23,248 nt of DNA from a virus. The position numbers and the translations under genes were made by a program. Below, piece by piece: positions 4,004 through 10,392 of the stretch. The stretch lies in IMG/VR virus record IMGVR_UViG_3300042446_002135, positions 1 through 23,248 of that record; one strand, 5' to 3'. The stretch's first letter is position 1. Each line of letters starts with the position of its first letter. Under the pieces are notes generated by a model. The model was not told the origin of the DNA. It ran no database searches and saw only the letters and a list, made by a program, of their open reading frames with translations.

Positions 4004-4315
4004 TTATGTATCGTATTTAACTATAAATGTCATATCCGTATCAGGTGACATCATTATCGGTTTAGCCACTTTAGCTACCATTAACAGCTCATTATCATCG
4101 TTATACAGCCCGATAGCAGTAGCATACGGGCGAAATGTGGATCCCGTTGTAAATGCAAGTAATGAGCCGCTTTCGTAGCTGCCTGTTACCAATGTGGGAT
4201 TATATGATAAATTAAATTCGCTTTCTTTTACGATACAACGCACCTCATTTTCGTAGATGTTGTGTTCGTTCTGGAATGATAAGTTAAATGATCCTGTATG
4301 TACTATTGCTGGCAT
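4004..4315 (-). CDS. Short protein matching the C-terminal module of the 9421-10392 virion protein
   Basis: This 103-residue protein has no domain I can name. Its second half is clearly related to the last ~80 residues of the structural protein at 9421-10392. Both have an EFN(L/Y)-x2-NP stretch followed by (V/I)G(M/L)YND(N/D)NELL-x-VAK-x2-KP, and both end in a short beta-like tail. It is either a shortened paralogue or the severed end of a duplicated fibre/baseplate gene. By my hand count its GC is about 39 percent, against roughly 25 percent in sampled lines of the next gene upstream (4341-4991), so it may have come from another phage. The likely role is virion-structural, by homology with its longer relative. 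Start choice: the only ATG that keeps the conserved block in frame. Confidence 0.7.
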   Translation of the reverse strand: MPAIVHTGSFNLSFQNEHNIYENEVRCIVKESEFNLSYNPTLVTGSYESGSLLAFTTGSTFRPYATAIGLYNDDNELLMVAKVAKPIMMSPDTDMTFIVKYDT

Positions 4316-4340: not shown

Positions 4341-4991
4341 CTATTTAAAGTATTTATTTTCATATACATTCCCGGGGAGTAATTTGTAGTTTATATTAAA
4401 CTTATGGATTAAATAAGGAAGGCTTAACTGATCTTGTACTGACCATAAACAATTTTGATAGAACCATTCTTTCATTAAATTGTAGTTTTTATTTTCAATA
4501 ACAGATTTTGAATATATAAAAATTCCACACTCAAATAAATAATTATCATTCCACGTATGATCTTTAAAATAATATTCAACCTGCTCTTTCATTTTCTCCC
4601 CATCATATCTATCTAAAAGATATTGATTGCCACCTTCCATTAAACTTAAAACAAAATCTGTCTCTTGCTTTACAGAAGTTCTTGCGCAATGTTTAAAAAA
4701 ACAAGCATCTACACCAATACATTCATCAACTAAGGTTTCTATTGCTTTTTCATCAGATATTGAAAAACTTGAATCCGCCCATATATAATAATCGTAGCCA
4801 GGATGATCTTCCCAAACAATCATTTTAGAGATTTTCCCTCTTAATCTAGGGGACATTGATTTTATTCTTGCTGATTCAGTATAATCATCTATTCTATTAA
4901 ATATTATTTCATATTTATCTGATTTTTGATCTACCCATTTAGAATGTAATCCACTACTAAAGCATGCGGTGGTCACTAATACTTTTATCAT
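4341..4991 (-). CDS. DUF616-like (TOD1/MUCI70-type) putative glycosyltransferase
   Basis: The 216-residue protein starts with a short beta strand (MIKVLVTTACF) as in GT-A folds. It has SPRLRGKISKM (47-57), then HPGYDYYIWADSSFSI (63-78) with a D-x-S in place of D-x-D, then ECGIFIYS (154-161) and QDQLSLPYLI (186-195). This order resembles the DUF616 family of glycosyltransferase-like proteins. A sugar-nucleotide-dependent transferase acting in the cytoplasm of the infected cell is the best guess. It is last in a row of three glycan genes and starts 3 bases after the GT2-methyltransferase gene ends, so the three probably act on the same glycan. GC is very low (about 25 percent in lines counted by hand). 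The family call is from recall of sequence pattern. Confidence 0.6.
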   Translation of the reverse strand: MIKVLVTTACFSSGLHSKWVDQKSDKYEIIFNRIDDYTESARIKSMSPRLRGKISKMIVWEDHPGYDYYIWADSSFSISDEKAIETLVDECIGVDACFFKHCARTSVKQETDFVLSLMEGGNQYLLDRYDGEKMKEQVEYYFKDHTWNDNYLFECGIFIYSKSVIENKNYNLMKEWFYQNCLWSVQDQLSLPYLIHKFNINYKLLPGNVYENKYFK

Positions 4992-4994
4992 TAA

Positions 4995-6401
4995 TTATAG
5001 GTTTTTTAATAAGTGATATTGGCATTCAATTTGTTTTTCTCCATAAAAAGAATGTACCACTTCAAATTTTTCTGAAATATATTCAATAAATTCATTCATT
5101 GTCCACTCTCTTACATGGCATCCATTTAAAGGAGGACCATCCCAAGTTGGACCATATGTAGCAGAAAATCTAGAATTTTTACATAGTGTTTCTCTACAAG
5201 GTGTAGAAATTATATAATATTTTGCATTTAAACTTATTAAATGTTCTAGTAAAACATCTGGGTCAATAATATGTTCTATTACATCACAGCATAAAACAAC
5301 ATCTGTATTTTCAATATTCGGATTAGTAAAAAATGAAGTTTCAGGCTCTCCTGCTAAATACCATTCACGATCAGGATATTTTGATTTAAGTAATGAATAA
5401 CAAGGTTCTGTTTCTGTACCAATTATTTTAAATTCACCTAAATCTTTTATTAATTTAAATCCACTTCCACAACCCACATCTACAATAGTTTGCAAGTTAT
5501 TTAATTTCATAAACTCAGCACAGTATTCATAAACTTCATATTGAGATTGATCTCTCCAATCTGAATCATCGTGGTGGCCAGGACTTAACCTATGTGTATA
5601 TCCTTCTTGAATTTTGTAGGTTTTAAAGGTATCTGTATTTTGTTCTTCCATAAAATCTTTTACTTTTTTAATGTAATCAAATTCCCATTTAGGATCTAAT
5701 TTTATATATCCAGTAGGAATATTGCCTAGCTGTCTTTGACTTTCAATATATTCAGAATGTCTTATAATAACATTTGGTTTATCATCTCCATTATCCGGAC
5801 CCCTACCACTCATATGATATGATCTATCTCCCCAATAATATATCCAACTTACTTCATTATCAGGAGGAGATGCAGATATCCATTTGCTAGGGAATGTATT
5901 TTTTATTTTTATAACAAAAGTCATATCATATCCAGCATTTTCTAAAGGATGACCTCCTATTTCCATCCATGCTTTTTTACTATAAACTATTCCACTGTTT
6001 CCTAAACCTGTTATAGCAGCAACATTAGGTCTATTAAATAAAACTCCTCTATTCCACTGTAATAAAGCAGAATCTTCTTTAAAATATTTAGCTATATTAC
6101 ATAGATGGTTAGGTAAAGCTAAATCATCATCATCCCATACTGCTATTATATCTGCTGAACATTGTTCTATGGCAAAATTTTCCTTCTCTCCTATTGTAGG
6201 AAAAGTATAGTCTAAATTAAATATTTTTACTTCAGGGTGATTAAATTCAAGTTTTTGTAAAGGATAATCATTAACAATAATAAGTTCTTTTTTACCAGGA
6301 TATTCTTGATTAATAAAAGAATATATTGATTCTTCAAGGGTATGTACTCGACCATATGTTATACACTTACACGATATAAAAGGGTAGGTCATATCAAACA
6401 T
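4995..6401 (-). CDS. Bifunctional glycosyltransferase family 2 / SAM-dependent methyltransferase
   Basis: The 468-residue protein is a fusion. The N-terminal part (about 5-240) is a GT2-type GT-A glycosyltransferase: PFISCKCITYGR, LIIVNDYP and a DDDD metal-binding cluster at 90-93 in AVWDDDDLALPNHL. The C-terminal part (about 290-468) is a Rossmann-fold methyltransferase: motif I VDVGCGSGF (307-315) and DVVLCCDVIEHI (367-378), then a late strand YYIISTP. It would add a sugar and then methylate it, or cap a chain. A second ATG at 6392 gives a protein starting MTYPFISC and a four-base ATGA overlap with the gene upstream, against 13 bases for the longer form. I consider 6392 the more likely true start. 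It sits between two other glycan genes and close to Thr-rich virion proteins, its possible substrates. Confidence 0.85.
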   Translation of the reverse strand: MFDMTYPFISCKCITYGRVHTLEESIYSFINQEYPGKKELIIVNDYPLQKLEFNHPEVKIFNLDYTFPTIGEKENFAIEQCSADIIAVWDDDDLALPNHLCNIAKYFKEDSALLQWNRGVLFNRPNVAAITGLGNSGIVYSKKAWMEIGGHPLENAGYDMTFVIKIKNTFPSKWISASPPDNEVSWIYYWGDRSYHMSGRGPDNGDDKPNVIIRHSEYIESQRQLGNIPTGYIKLDPKWEFDYIKKVKDFMEEQNTDTFKTYKIQEGYTHRLSPGHHDDSDWRDQSQYEVYEYCAEFMKLNNLQTIVDVGCGSGFKLIKDLGEFKIIGTETEPCYSLLKSKYPDREWYLAGEPETSFFTNPNIENTDVVLCCDVIEHIIDPDVLLEHLISLNAKYYIISTPCRETLCKNSRFSATYGPTWDGPPLNGCHVREWTMNEFIEYISEKFEVVHSFYGEKQIECQYHLLKNL

Positions 6402-7333
6402 GTTTTTTTAGAAGTTTCTAATATTTCTTCAACATATTTGTATGAACTAAAGTTAGGATCAAATGTATTTTCTATACCATATGGATACGAATTTGTATAA
6501 TTCCCTTTCATAAATAATTTACCATGTTCAGTAACGCCAGCATTATGAAATATAGACACTTCATCCCATCTATTTATATGATCTGTTGCCCAGCAAAAAT
6601 CTAAGCGTTTATCTACTCTTGTTTCATGACCTAATAACCAAGCGTTCCATAGTAATGACCACATTCCTGCTGTCCATTTTTGAATTGGGTATCCTTCACC
6701 TTTATAGTCAGCTTCTGTATCACAGAAATGTTTATATAATTTTATAGAATCAGATTCAACTTTATCCCAATATTCATATGTAGCTCCTTTAATAATATGT
6801 TGAGCTCCACCTGAGTTTGAATTCATTAATTTAGGGATAAGAGGATCAATACCTATTATATCACACATACCTTTATATACATCTTCACCTTTAGTTAAAA
6901 TGTATTGTGTACCTATATATCCTACTGTATCACTTAAATACCAAATGTTATCATTTAGCATTGCACTAAAATCTACTGGTTTAGTAAATAGTATATCTGA
7001 ATCATGGCACATTACTGGTGTAGAGGTCAATTCAGGAAAAGCAGCATAATGTTGCTTTATAATGTTAAAATATATTGATGGTATGTAGTTGCAGTTAATT
7101 CTAGTGTCTTGGTAAAAGAAGAAGCGAACGTAGTTGTAAGTATTAGTTAATTTATTCCATGCTTCTAAAATGTCAGGACGATTAGTTCCTGCATCTGTTG
7201 GGTTGTATGCTACTAGAATATCAATGTCATTTCCACTAATTCCATTTTTTATGAAATTATTGATCATAACTTCCACTTGCCATGCATAATATAAGATGCG
7301 TGGTTGAACACAAATGTAACGTAAATTTTTCAT
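6389..7333 (-). CDS. Putative glycosyltransferase, GT-A-like with DxD motif
   Basis: The 314-residue protein has MCHDSDILF (108-116) with a D-S-D typical of metal-binding GT-A glycosyltransferases. It also has SNSGGAQHIIKG (172-183), a Trp-rich segment (KWTAGMWSLLWNAWLLGH, 219-236) and IFHNAGV (261-267). The arrangement (Gln-rich start, DxD, Gly-Gly acceptor loop, late His-Asn) loosely recalls plant-type hydroxyproline/serine O-glycosyltransferases, but I cannot place it in a named family with certainty. It is the first of three glycan genes, directly downstream of a Thr-rich virion protein, and shares a 14-base leader box with that gene (7338-7351 and 7886-7899). A role in attaching the first sugar to the virion protein is attractive but unproven. 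Confidence 0.6.
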   Translation of the reverse strand: MKNLRYICVQPRILYYAWQVEVMINNFIKNGISGNDIDILVAYNPTDAGTNRPDILEAWNKLTNTYNYVRFFFYQDTRINCNYIPSIYFNIIKQHYAAFPELTSTPVMCHDSDILFTKPVDFSAMLNDNIWYLSDTVGYIGTQYILTKGEDVYKGMCDIIGIDPLIPKLMNSNSGGAQHIIKGATYEYWDKVESDSIKLYKHFCDTEADYKGEGYPIQKWTAGMWSLLWNAWLLGHETRVDKRLDFCWATDHINRWDEVSIFHNAGVTEHGKLFMKGNYTNSYPYGIENTFDPNFSSYKYVEEILETSKKTCLI

Positions 7334-7337
7334 AACT

Positions 7338-7351
7338 GTATTTTTATTTTA
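7338..7351 (-). promoter_or_regulatory. Shared 14-base A-rich leader box, copy 1
   Basis: The minus-strand sequence TAAAATAAAAATAC lies 4 bases before the ATG at 7333. The identical 14-mer occurs before the neighbouring gene (7886-7899). It may be a translation-enhancing A-rich leader, as favoured in Bacteroidota, a promoter part, or a trace of duplication. The function is inferred. Confidence 0.3.
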
Positions 7352-7352
7352 A

Positions 7353-7871
7353 TTAACAATTACCAGCAGCTGAACCAATCTGACCATTACCTGAATTAAT
7401 GTTGTATATATCTCCAACTGCTACATCTACTATAAAACCACCATTTAATAATGGAAGGCTTAAAAGAGAATTTGTGTAAACGACAGTACCAGTTGTAATT
7501 GTTTCTCCAAATGCCGTATATACAGTTTGTGATGGTTCTGCACAAACAGTTAAAAGTGAAAGAGTATTCCTTACAGTGAAAGTTGAAAATGCTACTGTAG
7601 TTGTTGTTGTCGTTGTACTAGTAGTTGTTGTAGTAGTCGTAGTAGTTGGAACTATGGTTAAATCTGTATGATTAGTACAACTACCTGATGATAATACTCT
7701 AATAATAGTAGCAGTATCTGGTACTAAACTAGAAGTATATCCCGTTACTAAAGTAGTTTTAGCTATATTAGTTTCAAATGGTGTTACATAGCTATCATAA
7801 TTTGATAATAAATTAAACGGACCTGTACTAGTTCCAGCTGTTGTTAATTGTATGATTACTGATTTTGCCAT
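7353..7871 (-). CDS. Thr-rich virion protein with mucin-like linker (small)
   Basis: The 172-residue protein has three parts. The N-terminal domain (1-75) has the pattern TGPFNLLSN, LVTGYTSSLVPD and IIRVLSSGSCTN, probably a small beta domain. A linker of 16 Thr and one Ser spans 76-92. The C-terminal beta-rich domain (about 93-172) has TVVYTNSL and DIYNINSGNG and ends in a Cys (AAGNC). I recall similar small modules joined by Thr runs in Bacteroidota phage virion proteins, but cannot name a family. The Thr run is a plausible O-glycosylation site or stiff extended linker. Its position between tail structural genes and glycosyltransferases supports a surface-exposed decoration or fibre-tip role. 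No signal peptide is seen, as expected for a virion component. Confidence 0.6.
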   Translation of the reverse strand: MAKSVIIQLTTAGTSTGPFNLLSNYDSYVTPFETNIAKTTLVTGYTSSLVPDTATIIRVLSSGSCTNHTDLTIVPTTTTTTTTTSTTTTTTTVAFSTFTVRNTLSLLTVCAEPSQTVYTAFGETITTGTVVYTNSLLSLPLLNGGFIVDVAVGDIYNINSGNGQIGSAAGNC

Positions 7872-7885
7872 TTTTGTTTATTCTA

Positions 7886-7899
7886 GTATTTTTATTTTA
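7886..7899 (-). promoter_or_regulatory. Shared 14-base A-rich leader box, copy 2
   Basis: This is an exact second copy of the TAAAATAAAAATAC box, 14 bases before the ATG at 7871 and inside a 34-base intergenic gap. It differs from copy 1 in its distance to the start codon, so a fixed ribosome-binding role is less likely than a promoter or duplication remnant. Confidence 0.3.
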
Positions 7900-7905
7900 T
7901 TAATT

Positions 7906-9417
7906 TTAGCATCCTCCCTGTACTATTCCATATGATGTTACAGCTCTATCTGTTGCTGAGTTAACAATAACAAATTGTTCACATAAAGTACCTACATAAC
8001 CAGGACATATGGCATCAGTTGAGAATGACATTCCATAAACAATAGTATCATCAGTATTATTTGCTACTTTGTACCATATTGTAGTGCCATTAACAACAGT
8101 ATCACTATACTTAATAACACAGGAGGTTGACATTGCCGAACCTCTTCTTGTCCAAGTACCAAATGCACCTGTAGGAGAAGTATATAAAGAAGCAGCATTA
8201 CCTGATGTGCCTAGAAGTTGAGCATATATGTTAATAGTATATGAAGGTGTTGTGGTTGTTGTCGTTGTTGTACTAGTTGTTGTTGTTGTTGTTGGTGTTG
8301 TTTCAACTGCTGAGCCACTTATTCCACAATCTAATGTTGTTGTAGAAGTTGTTGTACTAGTAGTAGTTGTTGGTGCCGTTGTTGTACTTGTTGTTGTACT
8401 AGTAGTAGTTGTAGGTGCCGTAGTTGTTGTAGTTGTTGTACTAGTAGTAGTTGTAGTAGTAGGTGGTGCTGTTGTTACATTTACTCTAACTTTAGCTTTA
8501 TTACTAGTCATTGAACATCCACTATTACATAAACTATCTACAGTGTAATACACATCATACGAACCTACTGTTGTAGTAGTTAATGTTAAAGTACCATTTG
8601 CATTTACGGTGTAATATGGTGAGTTGCTACCTGATATTACTACTGAGCCTGTGTCTATAGCACATGATCGTGCAATGTCATTAGATAATATATCTATTGT
8701 TTTTGGGCTATCTGTATCTAAAAATGTAGCTGAATCGTTATATGCTAATGGAGGTAAAGGAAACATTAACTGATAGTCAGGTTCAGTAATGATTGCTAAT
8801 CCATGAGCATAAAATATATTTCCAACATGAGTATTCCAAGCTGGATCATATGTTAAAAAATATGATTCTGCATTAAAGTAAGATCCTGAAATGTACCCTC
8901 CTAGATTTTTTGATATATCATATAAATTACCATTTCCATCATCCACAATAAAATAAACAGATGATGTTAATTTAAAATTATAAGGTAATATTTTAGTTCC
9001 ATATATATCTTGCTCTATAGATAGTACTCTAATTCCAGCTCCAGAGCCAGTAGGGAAAGTTTTTACTAAACGAGGATTGACGTTATAGTCAAAATATGAT
9101 TGTGTGGGACGTTGTTGAGAAGCGGATTCGTAAGTATTAACATTAAACATTAATGAACCAGTATCTAATAATCTTCCGTTGTATGCTTGATAAAACATAT
9201 GATTCATAGAATCATAAATTAATCTTTCATATTCACCATTAGTGACAGGATCAACAGATGCGTCCTCCGATACAAAAGTACCTGTTATATAGGTACCTTT
9301 ATAAATGTTAAAATAAGGATTAGTTGAAAAGCAGGTATATGGTAAATCCCACTGCTTGTTAGCAGAGTATAAAACAGTTGTGACGTCGGCCTTGCTTAAT
9401 TTTTTGAATACAGACAT
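7906..9417 (-). CDS. Large mucin-like tail/fibre protein with Ig-like domain and poly-Thr linkers
   Basis: This 503-residue protein has an N-terminal region (1-220) rich in Tyr, Asn and Ser, typical of phage tail structural proteins. An Ig-like/cadherin-like domain (about 222-314) contains PLAYNDSATF and KTIDILSNDI, the pattern of bacterial Ig repeats. A Thr-rich linker (315-361) holds two perfect 14-residue repeats, APTTTTSTTTSTTT at 334-347 and 348-361. A short Cys-containing insert and a second Thr run (373-390) follow. A C-terminal beta domain (391-503) ends in GGC. The composition is mucin-like, so the linkers could be heavily O-glycosylated or act as extended spacers. It lies 3 bases after the 9421-10392 gene, so it is probably part of the same adhesin or decoration complex. 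The attachment partner is unknown. Confidence 0.7.
   Translation of the reverse strand: MSVFKKLSKADVTTVLYSANKQWDLPYTCFSTNPYFNIYKGTYITGTFVSEDASVDPVTNGEYERLIYDSMNHMFYQAYNGRLLDTGSLMFNVNTYESASQQRPTQSYFDYNVNPRLVKTFPTGSGAGIRVLSIEQDIYGTKILPYNFKLTSSVYFIVDDGNGNLYDISKNLGGYISGSYFNAESYFLTYDPAWNTHVGNIFYAHGLAIITEPDYQLMFPLPPLAYNDSATFLDTDSPKTIDILSNDIARSCAIDTGSVVISGSNSPYYTVNANGTLTLTTTTVGSYDVYYTVDSLCNSGCSMTSNKAKVRVNVTTAPPTTTTTTSTTTTTTTAPTTTTSTTTSTTTAPTTTTSTTTSTTTLDCGISGSAVETTPTTTTTTSTTTTTTTTPSYTINIYAQLLGTSGNAASLYTSPTGAFGTWTRRGSAMSTSCVIKYSDTVVNGTTIWYKVANNTDDTIVYGMSFSTDAICPGYVGTLCEQFVIVNSATDRAVTSYGIVQGGC
8248..8301 (-). repeat. Poly-Thr coding repeat, second stretch
   Basis: This is a low-complexity run of ACN codons encoding residues 373-390. 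It shares the core GTTGTACTAG (plus-strand reading) with the larger tandem array at 8335-8475 and with the Thr run of the neighbouring gene at 7596-7646. Such shared repeats could recombine and change linker length. Confidence 0.75.
8335..8475 (-). repeat. 42-bp tandem repeat array coding Thr-rich linker
   Basis: Read on the plus strand, the 20-base core GTTGTACTAGTAGTAGTTGT begins at 8351, 8393 and 8435, a period of exactly 42 bases (14 codons), so the array stays in frame. The remaining part of each unit diverges. It encodes residues 315-361 of the large Thr-rich protein, including two perfect APTTTTSTTTSTTT repeats. Gain or loss of units would lengthen or shorten the linker without a frameshift. 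Confidence 0.85.
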
Positions 9418-9420
9418 GCA

Positions 9421-10392
9421 TTAATAATCTAATTTGATTCTAATTAAAGCTTCTTTGGTGAAATCTTTTACCAATGGTTTACTTAATTTAGCTACAGCTA
9501 ATAACTCATTATTATCATTGTACATACCTACTGTAGTTACAAATGTTTGTGGGTTATTAATTAATGTAGTATATAATAAATTACCATTATCATCTATAAT
9601 AGATGGATTAGTAGTATAATTAAATTCGCCGTTCTTAACGCGTGTGAAGAAATAACGTGATGAAATAACTTCTTGAGATTGTGCTTGGAAACTAGCGCCT
9701 GTCTTTATTGAAGCAAATAATTTTAAATGATTATTTACTGATGAAGTTGCTTGACTTGGAGCTTGAATATATGGACTTAATGAACCAGAAGCATTTAAAA
9801 CAACTATTCCTAAATCAGGTAACATTATACCGTAGTAAGTATTAACAGCACTACTAGTAAATGCATTACCATTACTGCCACTAATAATATTATAAATTCT
9901 ATTTTCTCCTAAGAAACGTGTTAAACCTGTTGTATTACTATCATCTGTTAATTTAATAGTAGCACTTCCACTTGTTAAAGTTAAATTAAATGTACCCTGT
10001 TGAATTGATTGCTTATAGCGAGCTCTAGAAATATTAATTACATAGATATCATTTGCTGTTGTAGTACCACCATCAAAACTAAAGTTTGTTGTTTCGGTAC
10101 CATATACTAAGTTTCTATATTGACCATAAACAATACGTGATGGAGAATATCCAATTACAGTAGAATTAATAGGAGCTGAACCAGATCCATTAATATTACC
10201 ATATTGAATATCAAATTGTACTTCTGAGCCAGATGTTGTTGAGCCTGTTTGATACACATCTAAATAATATTCTGTATAAGCACTAGCTGTAAAGAATGTA
10301 GATAAAGTATATGCGTCTCCGACCCACATTGGGCGAACTACGGTTTCGGCGCTTATTACTGAATCATCGGTATTATATCTTGAGAATGACAT
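9421..10392 (-). CDS. Virion structural protein with conserved C-terminal YNDxNELL module
   Basis: The 323-residue protein has no enzymatic motif. It is rich in Ser, Thr, Tyr and Asn, has beta-strand-like alternation and no signal peptide, as expected of tail or fibre proteins. The start MSFSRYNTDDSVISAETVV resembles conserved small structural proteins of T4-like phages. The last ~80 residues hold GEFNYTTNP and VGMYNDNNELLAVAKLSKP, the module repeated in the 4004-4315 protein. The 5' end of the gene is richer in GC (about 45 percent in one 60-base line counted by hand) than its 3' end (about 23 percent), hinting at a mosaic gene. Genes on both sides are virion proteins, so a distal tail role is likely; the exact part is unknown. 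Confidence 0.65.
   Translation of the reverse strand: MSFSRYNTDDSVISAETVVRPMWVGDAYTLSTFFTASAYTEYYLDVYQTGSTTSGSEVQFDIQYGNINGSGSAPINSTVIGYSPSRIVYGQYRNLVYGTETTNFSFDGGTTTANDIYVINISRARYKQSIQQGTFNLTLTSGSATIKLTDDSNTTGLTRFLGENRIYNIISGSNGNAFTSSAVNTYYGIMLPDLGIVVLNASGSLSPYIQAPSQATSSVNNHLKLFASIKTGASFQAQSQEVISSRYFFTRVKNGEFNYTTNPSIIDDNGNLLYTTLINNPQTFVTTVGMYNDNNELLAVAKLSKPLVKDFTKEALIRIKLDY

Follow-up and report, generated by a model that had tools for sequence, protein, structure and literature searches.

A candidate phage-encoded module for O-glycosylation of poly-threonine virion proteins, centred on the PHROG 4417 family

We analyzed a 23,248-base virus fragment from IMG/VR (record IMGVR_UViG_3300042446_002135, referred to here as the window) that encodes two proteins with threonine/serine (Thr/Ser) tracts, T503 and T172, and a protein of the PHROG 4417 family, referred to here as P4417. 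Our data indicate that this locus is probably a phage-encoded O-glycosylation module for virion poly-threonine (poly-Thr) that depends on P4417, a reading to which we assign a probability of about 0.78. Since members of the P4417 family are found nearly always beside poly-Thr virion proteins in unrelated viruses, these viruses probably glycosylate their own particles. An earlier note on this DNA had described the two Thr-tract proteins as followed without interruption by three glycan-type genes: P4417, a glycosyltransferase family 2 (GT2)-methyltransferase (MT) fusion of 468 residues and a DUF616-like protein of 216 residues. The genes were confirmed to lie head to tail on the minus strand at the coordinates claimed, as was the tight spacing of the genes (34 nucleotides, 19 nucleotides, an overlap and 3 nucleotides), including the ATGA overlap that arises if the 468-residue gene starts at 6392. 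Relatives at loci L003 and L023 start near the Met at that position.

P4417 (314 residues) matches phrog_4417 at 1.4e-63, a family that carries the PHROG label "unknown function" and has members in 72 phage records of GenBank as well as in many prophages and viruses from the environment. Searches against Pfam and NCBIfam gave no match above a curated cut-off that would place P4417 in a named glycosyltransferase (GT) family, and a P4417 profile searched against PDB sequences returned chance matches only, with no detectable match to any chain. We found that D111xD113, Q178 and H263 are invariant across 52 diverse P4417 sequences. The AlphaFold model of P4417 has a predicted local distance difference test score (pLDDT) of 95.8 and a predicted template modelling score (pTM) of 0.92, and Foldseek returned 169 PDB matches to the model at E<=0.001, with GT-A enzymes at E 4e-7. 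The best structural matches are all glycosyltransferases, mostly GT8/GT24-like (WbbM, UGGT, glycogenin, XXYLT1 and LgtC). Given the GT-A fold of the model and the conserved DxD, P4417 is a confidently predicted GT-A glycosyltransferase, which bears out the earlier description of a GT-A-like protein with a DSD motif.

The Thr/Ser runs of T503 comprise 14, 12, 12 and 15 residues (residues 320-390), and T172 contains one run of 17 (residues 76-92). Runs of at least 12 residues have a chance expectation of 8e-6 across all 7,636 residues of the window, whose remaining open reading frames (ORFs) contain no run of six or more. Thr codons within the tracts are mixed like other Thr codons (entropy of 1.39 versus 1.54 bits), and adjacent identical Thr codons occur at 0.43 versus 0.44 expected. 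Since the codon mix is the same as elsewhere, a DNA microsatellite origin of the tracts is ruled out. The Thr/Ser runs are far above chance and are constrained at the protein level. The Bacteroidetes general O-glycosylation system recognizes the motif D(S/T)(A/I/L/V/M/T); no Asp is present in the listed tracts, which therefore lack this motif. Throughout our comparisons tracts were defined as T/S runs; a Thr density of at least 6/10 was rejected as too loose, as the beta-rich S222 protein passes too.

We compared the neighborhoods of P4417 at 80 IMG/VR loci, 41 GTDB loci and in 8 GenBank phages. A poly-Thr gene lies directly 5' of P4417 at 95 of 109 loci after dereplication at 95%, at 64 of 76 after dereplication at 80% and at 23 of 28 after dereplication at 60%, while the same is true of 6-8% of other same-strand ORFs in P4417 loci. 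The median gap between the Thr-tract gene and P4417 is 17 nucleotides, and in other phages tandem members of the T172 family likewise precede P4417. The adjacency extends from phages of Bacteroidota to prophages of Firmicutes. In the Bacteroidota phages most tracts are linkers within the protein; in Firmicutes they form C-terminal tails on major capsid proteins (PF05065, PF03864 and phrog_840) and on major tail proteins (phrog_88, 238 and 117) of several unrelated families, and one prophage often carries such tails on both. We also observed at L186, L190, L203 and L212 that, within a prophage, capsid and tail proteins share near-identical poly-Thr tails, with common terminal residues (e.g., TTTSHA, TTTTQA, TTTAAV) as if copied between genes. 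Thr tracts are present in all eight INPHARED phages examined, and in phiFL1A P4417 sits in the structural operon, after the gene for the major tail protein and before further tail genes. Cultured phages with P4417 include Lactococcus phage 1706, whose orf13 product has a poly-Thr C-terminus, Lactobacillus phages iLp84 and PLE3, and Chryseobacterium phage MA9V-3. Apparent exceptions at L019, L051 and L069 have a tract elsewhere in the contig. At L215 (Enterococcus innesii) P4417 is disrupted by in-frame stops and the genome is without any ACN x6 run; one reading that we offer is that the enzyme has decayed and that the acceptor was lost or never there. It is highly improbable that P4417 acts on phage DNA or another target and that co-occurrence reflects co-inheritance in a mobile block. 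DNA-modifying phage GTs exist, as cited in PMC12619734, and the cassette and tract do travel as a block; however, block inheritance alone explains neither why several separate genes of a single prophage, for capsid and tail proteins, encode poly-Thr tails nor why P4417-adjacent tracts occur in unrelated protein families.

Sister phages that share the tail backbone of the window were gathered by an S222 scan, and a backbone tree was built on S222 and S323. Both P4417 and a tract are present in 25 of these phages, P4417 only in 4, a tract only in 2 and neither in 47; one of the tract-only cases, L096, is weak (TTTSTT). On the tree P4417 changes 10 times, with at least 7 changes on supported branches. 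Across seven independent pairs poly-Thr shifts with P4417 in 5.7 and in the opposite direction in 0.1 (median p about 0.03), a test that has modest power and is free of pseudo-replication. P4417 and poly-Thr are gained and lost together among same-backbone phages.

Many sister phages without P4417 have T503 linkers of Pro-spaced Thr/Ser (TPTPTQT, TRTPSVTATPS). At 12 of these Pro-Thr loci (e.g., L093, L099, L103, L105, L106 and L157) we found a gene for a PF11397 protein of approximately 417 residues, positioned after the T503 linker gene in the same place as P4417. GT60 enzymes of eukaryotes transfer N-acetylglucosamine (GlcNAc) onto polypeptides, and PF11397 represents the GT60 polypeptide GlcNAc-transferases (Dictyostelium Skp1, trypanosome mucin). 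Poly-Thr with PF11397 and Pro-Thr with P4417 were each found at 0 loci, and PF11397 is absent from all nine P4417 contigs tested. Eighteen Pro-Thr loci lack both P4417 and PF11397 in the stretch searched, and L141 has PF11397 elsewhere in the contig. Linker type and GT type switch as matched pairs at one locus, with which the GT60/Pro-Thr contrast on the backbone tree is consistent but underpowered. Phage GTs that act on host surface polysaccharide are well known, and the GTs studied here might likewise alter that polysaccharide (serotype conversion, receptor masking) with poly-Thr as mere flexible spacers, for which the occurrence of poly-Thr without any GT can be counted. We consider this quite unlikely, given that P4417 is tied to a Thr-tract gene in unrelated phages and, in phiFL1A, lies within a structural operon, that P4417 and poly-Thr change together on the tree, and that GT type switches along with linker type.

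As a reverse test, we examined 53 random viral loci with mixed-codon poly-Thr, where P4417 lies directly beside the tract gene at 9 and elsewhere in the contig at 2. Several observations weigh against a P4417-dependent module. Poly-Thr occurs without P4417 at 42 of the 53 random loci, many of them fragmentary; at the remaining poly-Thr loci the scan of downstream genes found no GT, except for a GT60-like match in L234, and P4417-less poly-Thr is seen next to endolysin or Zot genes without a GT. P4417 loci L024, L037, L043, L044 and L181 have no tract in the stretch searched, and among the sister phages L151 is the real exception, with tracts and without P4417 in 33 kilobases. L003 has the GT2-MT and DUF616-like pair and Thr tracts but lacks P4417, and the flanking genes of P4417-less sisters include some GTs, so that GT enrichment here is not unique to P4417. 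Finally, the Foldseek template modelling (TM) score from P4417 to any solved GT is only about 0.5, and the donor and acceptor are therefore not readable from structure. We rejected a pan-phage rule that poly-Thr implies a GT, as most random poly-Thr loci are without P4417 or a scanned GT; poly-Thr alone is therefore no proof of glycosylation. P4417 predicts poly-Thr, and poly-Thr does not predict P4417. The earlier note had proposed co-occurrence of its three enzymes with poly-Thr proteins as a check on O-glycosylation. This holds for P4417 only, which hardly ever occurs without a poly-Thr virion-type protein, usually encoded by the gene immediately 5' of it; the converse fails (P4417 in 11 of 53 poly-Thr contigs), and the other two genes vary between phages as accessories.

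The fusion predicted for the 468-residue protein is supported, with GT2 at residues 14-112 and an S-adenosylmethionine methyltransferase at residues 297-427, both over the Pfam cut-off (Glycos_transf_2, 41.9 versus 23.3 bits; Methyltransf_23, 30.5 versus 27). The DUF616-like call stands in part, as the 216-residue protein matches TOD1_MUCI70 (PF04765)/DUF616 at E 9e-4 but with a score of 19.0 bits, just below the gathering cut-off of 21.4. Its fold model is modest (pLDDT 66) and has GT-A enzymes as its best PDB matches; it is a probable small GT-A glycosyltransferase. These two genes recur together in L002 and L003, GT2 and MT being two genes in L003. Among the first and second genes after P4417 in Bacteroidota phages GT2 accounts for 9 of 49, and other families after P4417 include methyltransferases (among them FkbM), GT6, GT11, GT25, GT34, Fringe-like and hexapeptide proteins; control genes in P4417-less sisters match mainly PF11397, with few other families. 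The GT2-MT fusion and the DUF616-like gene behave as accessories that can be swapped, and a methylated sugar is plausible.

We propose that P4417 is a soluble GT-A enzyme, encoded directly 3' of its substrate gene, that would act first and move a sugar from a host nucleotide-sugar to Thr, perhaps Ser, in the poly-Thr linkers of T503 and T172. This transfer would be cytoplasmic and would precede or accompany assembly of the tail. The GT2-MT fusion and the DUF616-like enzyme would next extend or O-methylate the first sugar, with extension genes exchanged between phages. The linkers of the tail-locus proteins would in this way become stiff and bottlebrush-like, resist proteases and vary in their decoration; mimicry of host glycans and altered binding are further possible roles that the earlier note suggested. 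We infer the transfer to Thr, the order of action, the sugar and the benefit to the phage. It is also conceivable, if unlikely, that a host enzyme primes the virion poly-Thr and that P4417 extends the glycan; further GT genes do follow P4417 in Bacteroidota phages, and the first step is not decidable from sequence, but no such enzyme other than P4417 was noticed beside tract genes in the Firmicutes phages examined, and its strict linkage to the tract is as expected of an enzyme with a peptide acceptor.

The N-terminal part of an ancestral gene of approximately 310 residues makes up residues 1-215 of T503 (8773-9417). One ORF of approximately 310-360 residues joins this part to the Ct103 part at 22 P4417-less loci and in Flavobacterium phage immuto, and at 28 of 31 P4417 loci the two are separate ORFs that bracket the Thr region, P4417 and accessory genes. 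Since they form one gene in enzyme-less relatives, the cassette lies inside an ancestral tail gene. Eleven loci without P4417 or PF11397 are likewise split, so the split is a feature of a hotspot and not unique to P4417. Of the two possible directions, insertion into the ancestral gene would be a simpler reading than fusion. S323 (9421-10392) and Ct103 share a C-terminal domain (approximately 34-39% identity, S323 homologues of L098, L125 and L088), which suggests that they are paralogous tail proteins. We consider it somewhat better than an even chance that the PHROG 4417 family serves across phages as an O-glycosyltransferase dedicated to poly-threonine. Together with a poly-Thr "tag" it would form a mobile module of acceptor and enzyme that has been grafted onto proteins of the capsid, tail tube and fibre locus in unrelated phages; in the window this module would lie within an ancestral tail gene, and at one locus a second matched pair, Pro-Thr/Ser repeats and a GT60-like enzyme, could take its place.

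The main genes of the window lie on the minus strand throughout, in the order baseplate wedge proteins, endolysin, S1505 (a large tail-region protein), S328, S222, S323, T503, T172, P4417, GT2-MT, DUF616-like, Ct103, a GIY-YIG protein, primase, exonuclease and a partial TonB-dependent receptor. Immuto, the nearest cultured relative found, has a matching order (gp25, gp6, S371, S107, S1505, S222, S323 and a T503 homologue, with tail fibre and tail spike genes next), which places T503 at the tail-fibre locus of a Bacteroidota myovirus. Judging from its relatives, we infer a Bacteroidota host for the window virus.

Table 1. Positions in the window of the genes and sequence features discussed
Feature	Position	Strand	Description
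T503	7906-9417	-	Tail-fibre-locus protein; ancestral N-terminal part, then Thr linkers, then new C-terminal region
Poly-Thr linkers of T503	8248-8460	-	Residues 320-390; four runs of 12-15 T/S, some AP-spaced
T172	7353-7871	-	Small protein with a single 17-residue poly-Thr linker
Poly-Thr linker of T172	7596-7646	-	Residues 76-92
P4417 (phrog_4417)	6389-7333	-	314 residues; predicted GT-A glycosyltransferase
DxD of P4417 (D111-S-D113)	6995-7003	-	Invariant
H263 of P4417	6545-6547	-	Invariant
GT2-MT fusion	4995-6401 (or start 6392)	-	468 residues; accessory glycan gene
TOD1_MUCI70/DUF616-like protein	4341-4991	-	216 residues; probable small GT-A glycosyltransferase, accessory
Ct103	4004-4315	-	103 residues; C-terminal ~100 residues of ancestral gene

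A 106-residue Val/Gly-rich ORF on the plus strand (8228-8548) is the antisense of the poly-Thr linker and no gene. In positions 2-1756 of the window and in related contigs, a TonB-dependent receptor is followed by a putative lipoprotein of approximately 400 residues with the N-terminus MKKLLGFILVLALFSC. This pair lies at 14636-18081 in L002, 9620-13065 in L008 and 13190-16543 in L125, and the receptor in L002 and L008 has 748 residues with plug and barrel domains. In several related contigs, and not in others, the pair is set between the phage exonuclease and other phage genes; it would be a phage-borne outer-membrane uptake pair, perhaps one that serves superinfection exclusion or nutrient uptake.

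Our reading gives a likely function to the unannotated PHROG 4417 family and predicts which virions bear O-glycans and at which residues. Virion glycans are reported to affect immune recognition of mycobacteriophages and are therefore relevant to phage therapy. An enzyme that modifies poly-Thr in the bacterial cytoplasm, if this is true of P4417, would be a useful glycoengineering tool.

A literature search, made mostly without subscription journals, found no paper that ties poly-Thr (threonine-rich) sequences to a phage GT. Virion glycosylation is known from mycobacteriophages, where Freeman et al. reportedly described it in 2023; the P4417 enzyme, the poly-Thr acceptor and the matched swapping appear to be undescribed. 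P4417 resembles GT8/GT24-type GT-A enzymes (glycogenin, UGGT, LgtC, XXYLT1) in predicted fold, DxD and C-terminal His, but differs in its TM score of about 0.5 and in having no sequence match to PDB, Pfam or NCBIfam. PF11397 (GT60) enzymes of sister phages occupy the place of P4417 after the linker protein, yet they belong to a distinct family and accompany repeats of Pro-spaced Thr/Ser, not poly-Thr. Eukaryotic mucin-type O-glycosylation (GT27) shares dense Thr/Ser acceptors and probable chain extension by more GTs, whereas no GT27 domain was found here and action in the cytoplasm on virion proteins is predicted. In mycobacteriophages (Che8 and relatives), virion glycans are reported at the C-termini of capsid and tail-tube subunits, as cited in PMC11256854 and PMC12619734. 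Che8 differs in that none of its GTs is matched by the P4417 model (gp108-110) or the PF11397 model, with no homology of the enzymes recognizable, and in that its capsid and tail proteins are without poly-Thr and its cassette is far from its targets. The two systems are alike in that both have a phage GT cassette, Che8 gp108 being also a GT2-methyltransferase fusion like the 468-residue protein of the window, and the glycan-bearing proteins of mycobacteriophages, capsid and tail tube, are those that carry poly-Thr tails in Firmicutes P4417 phages.

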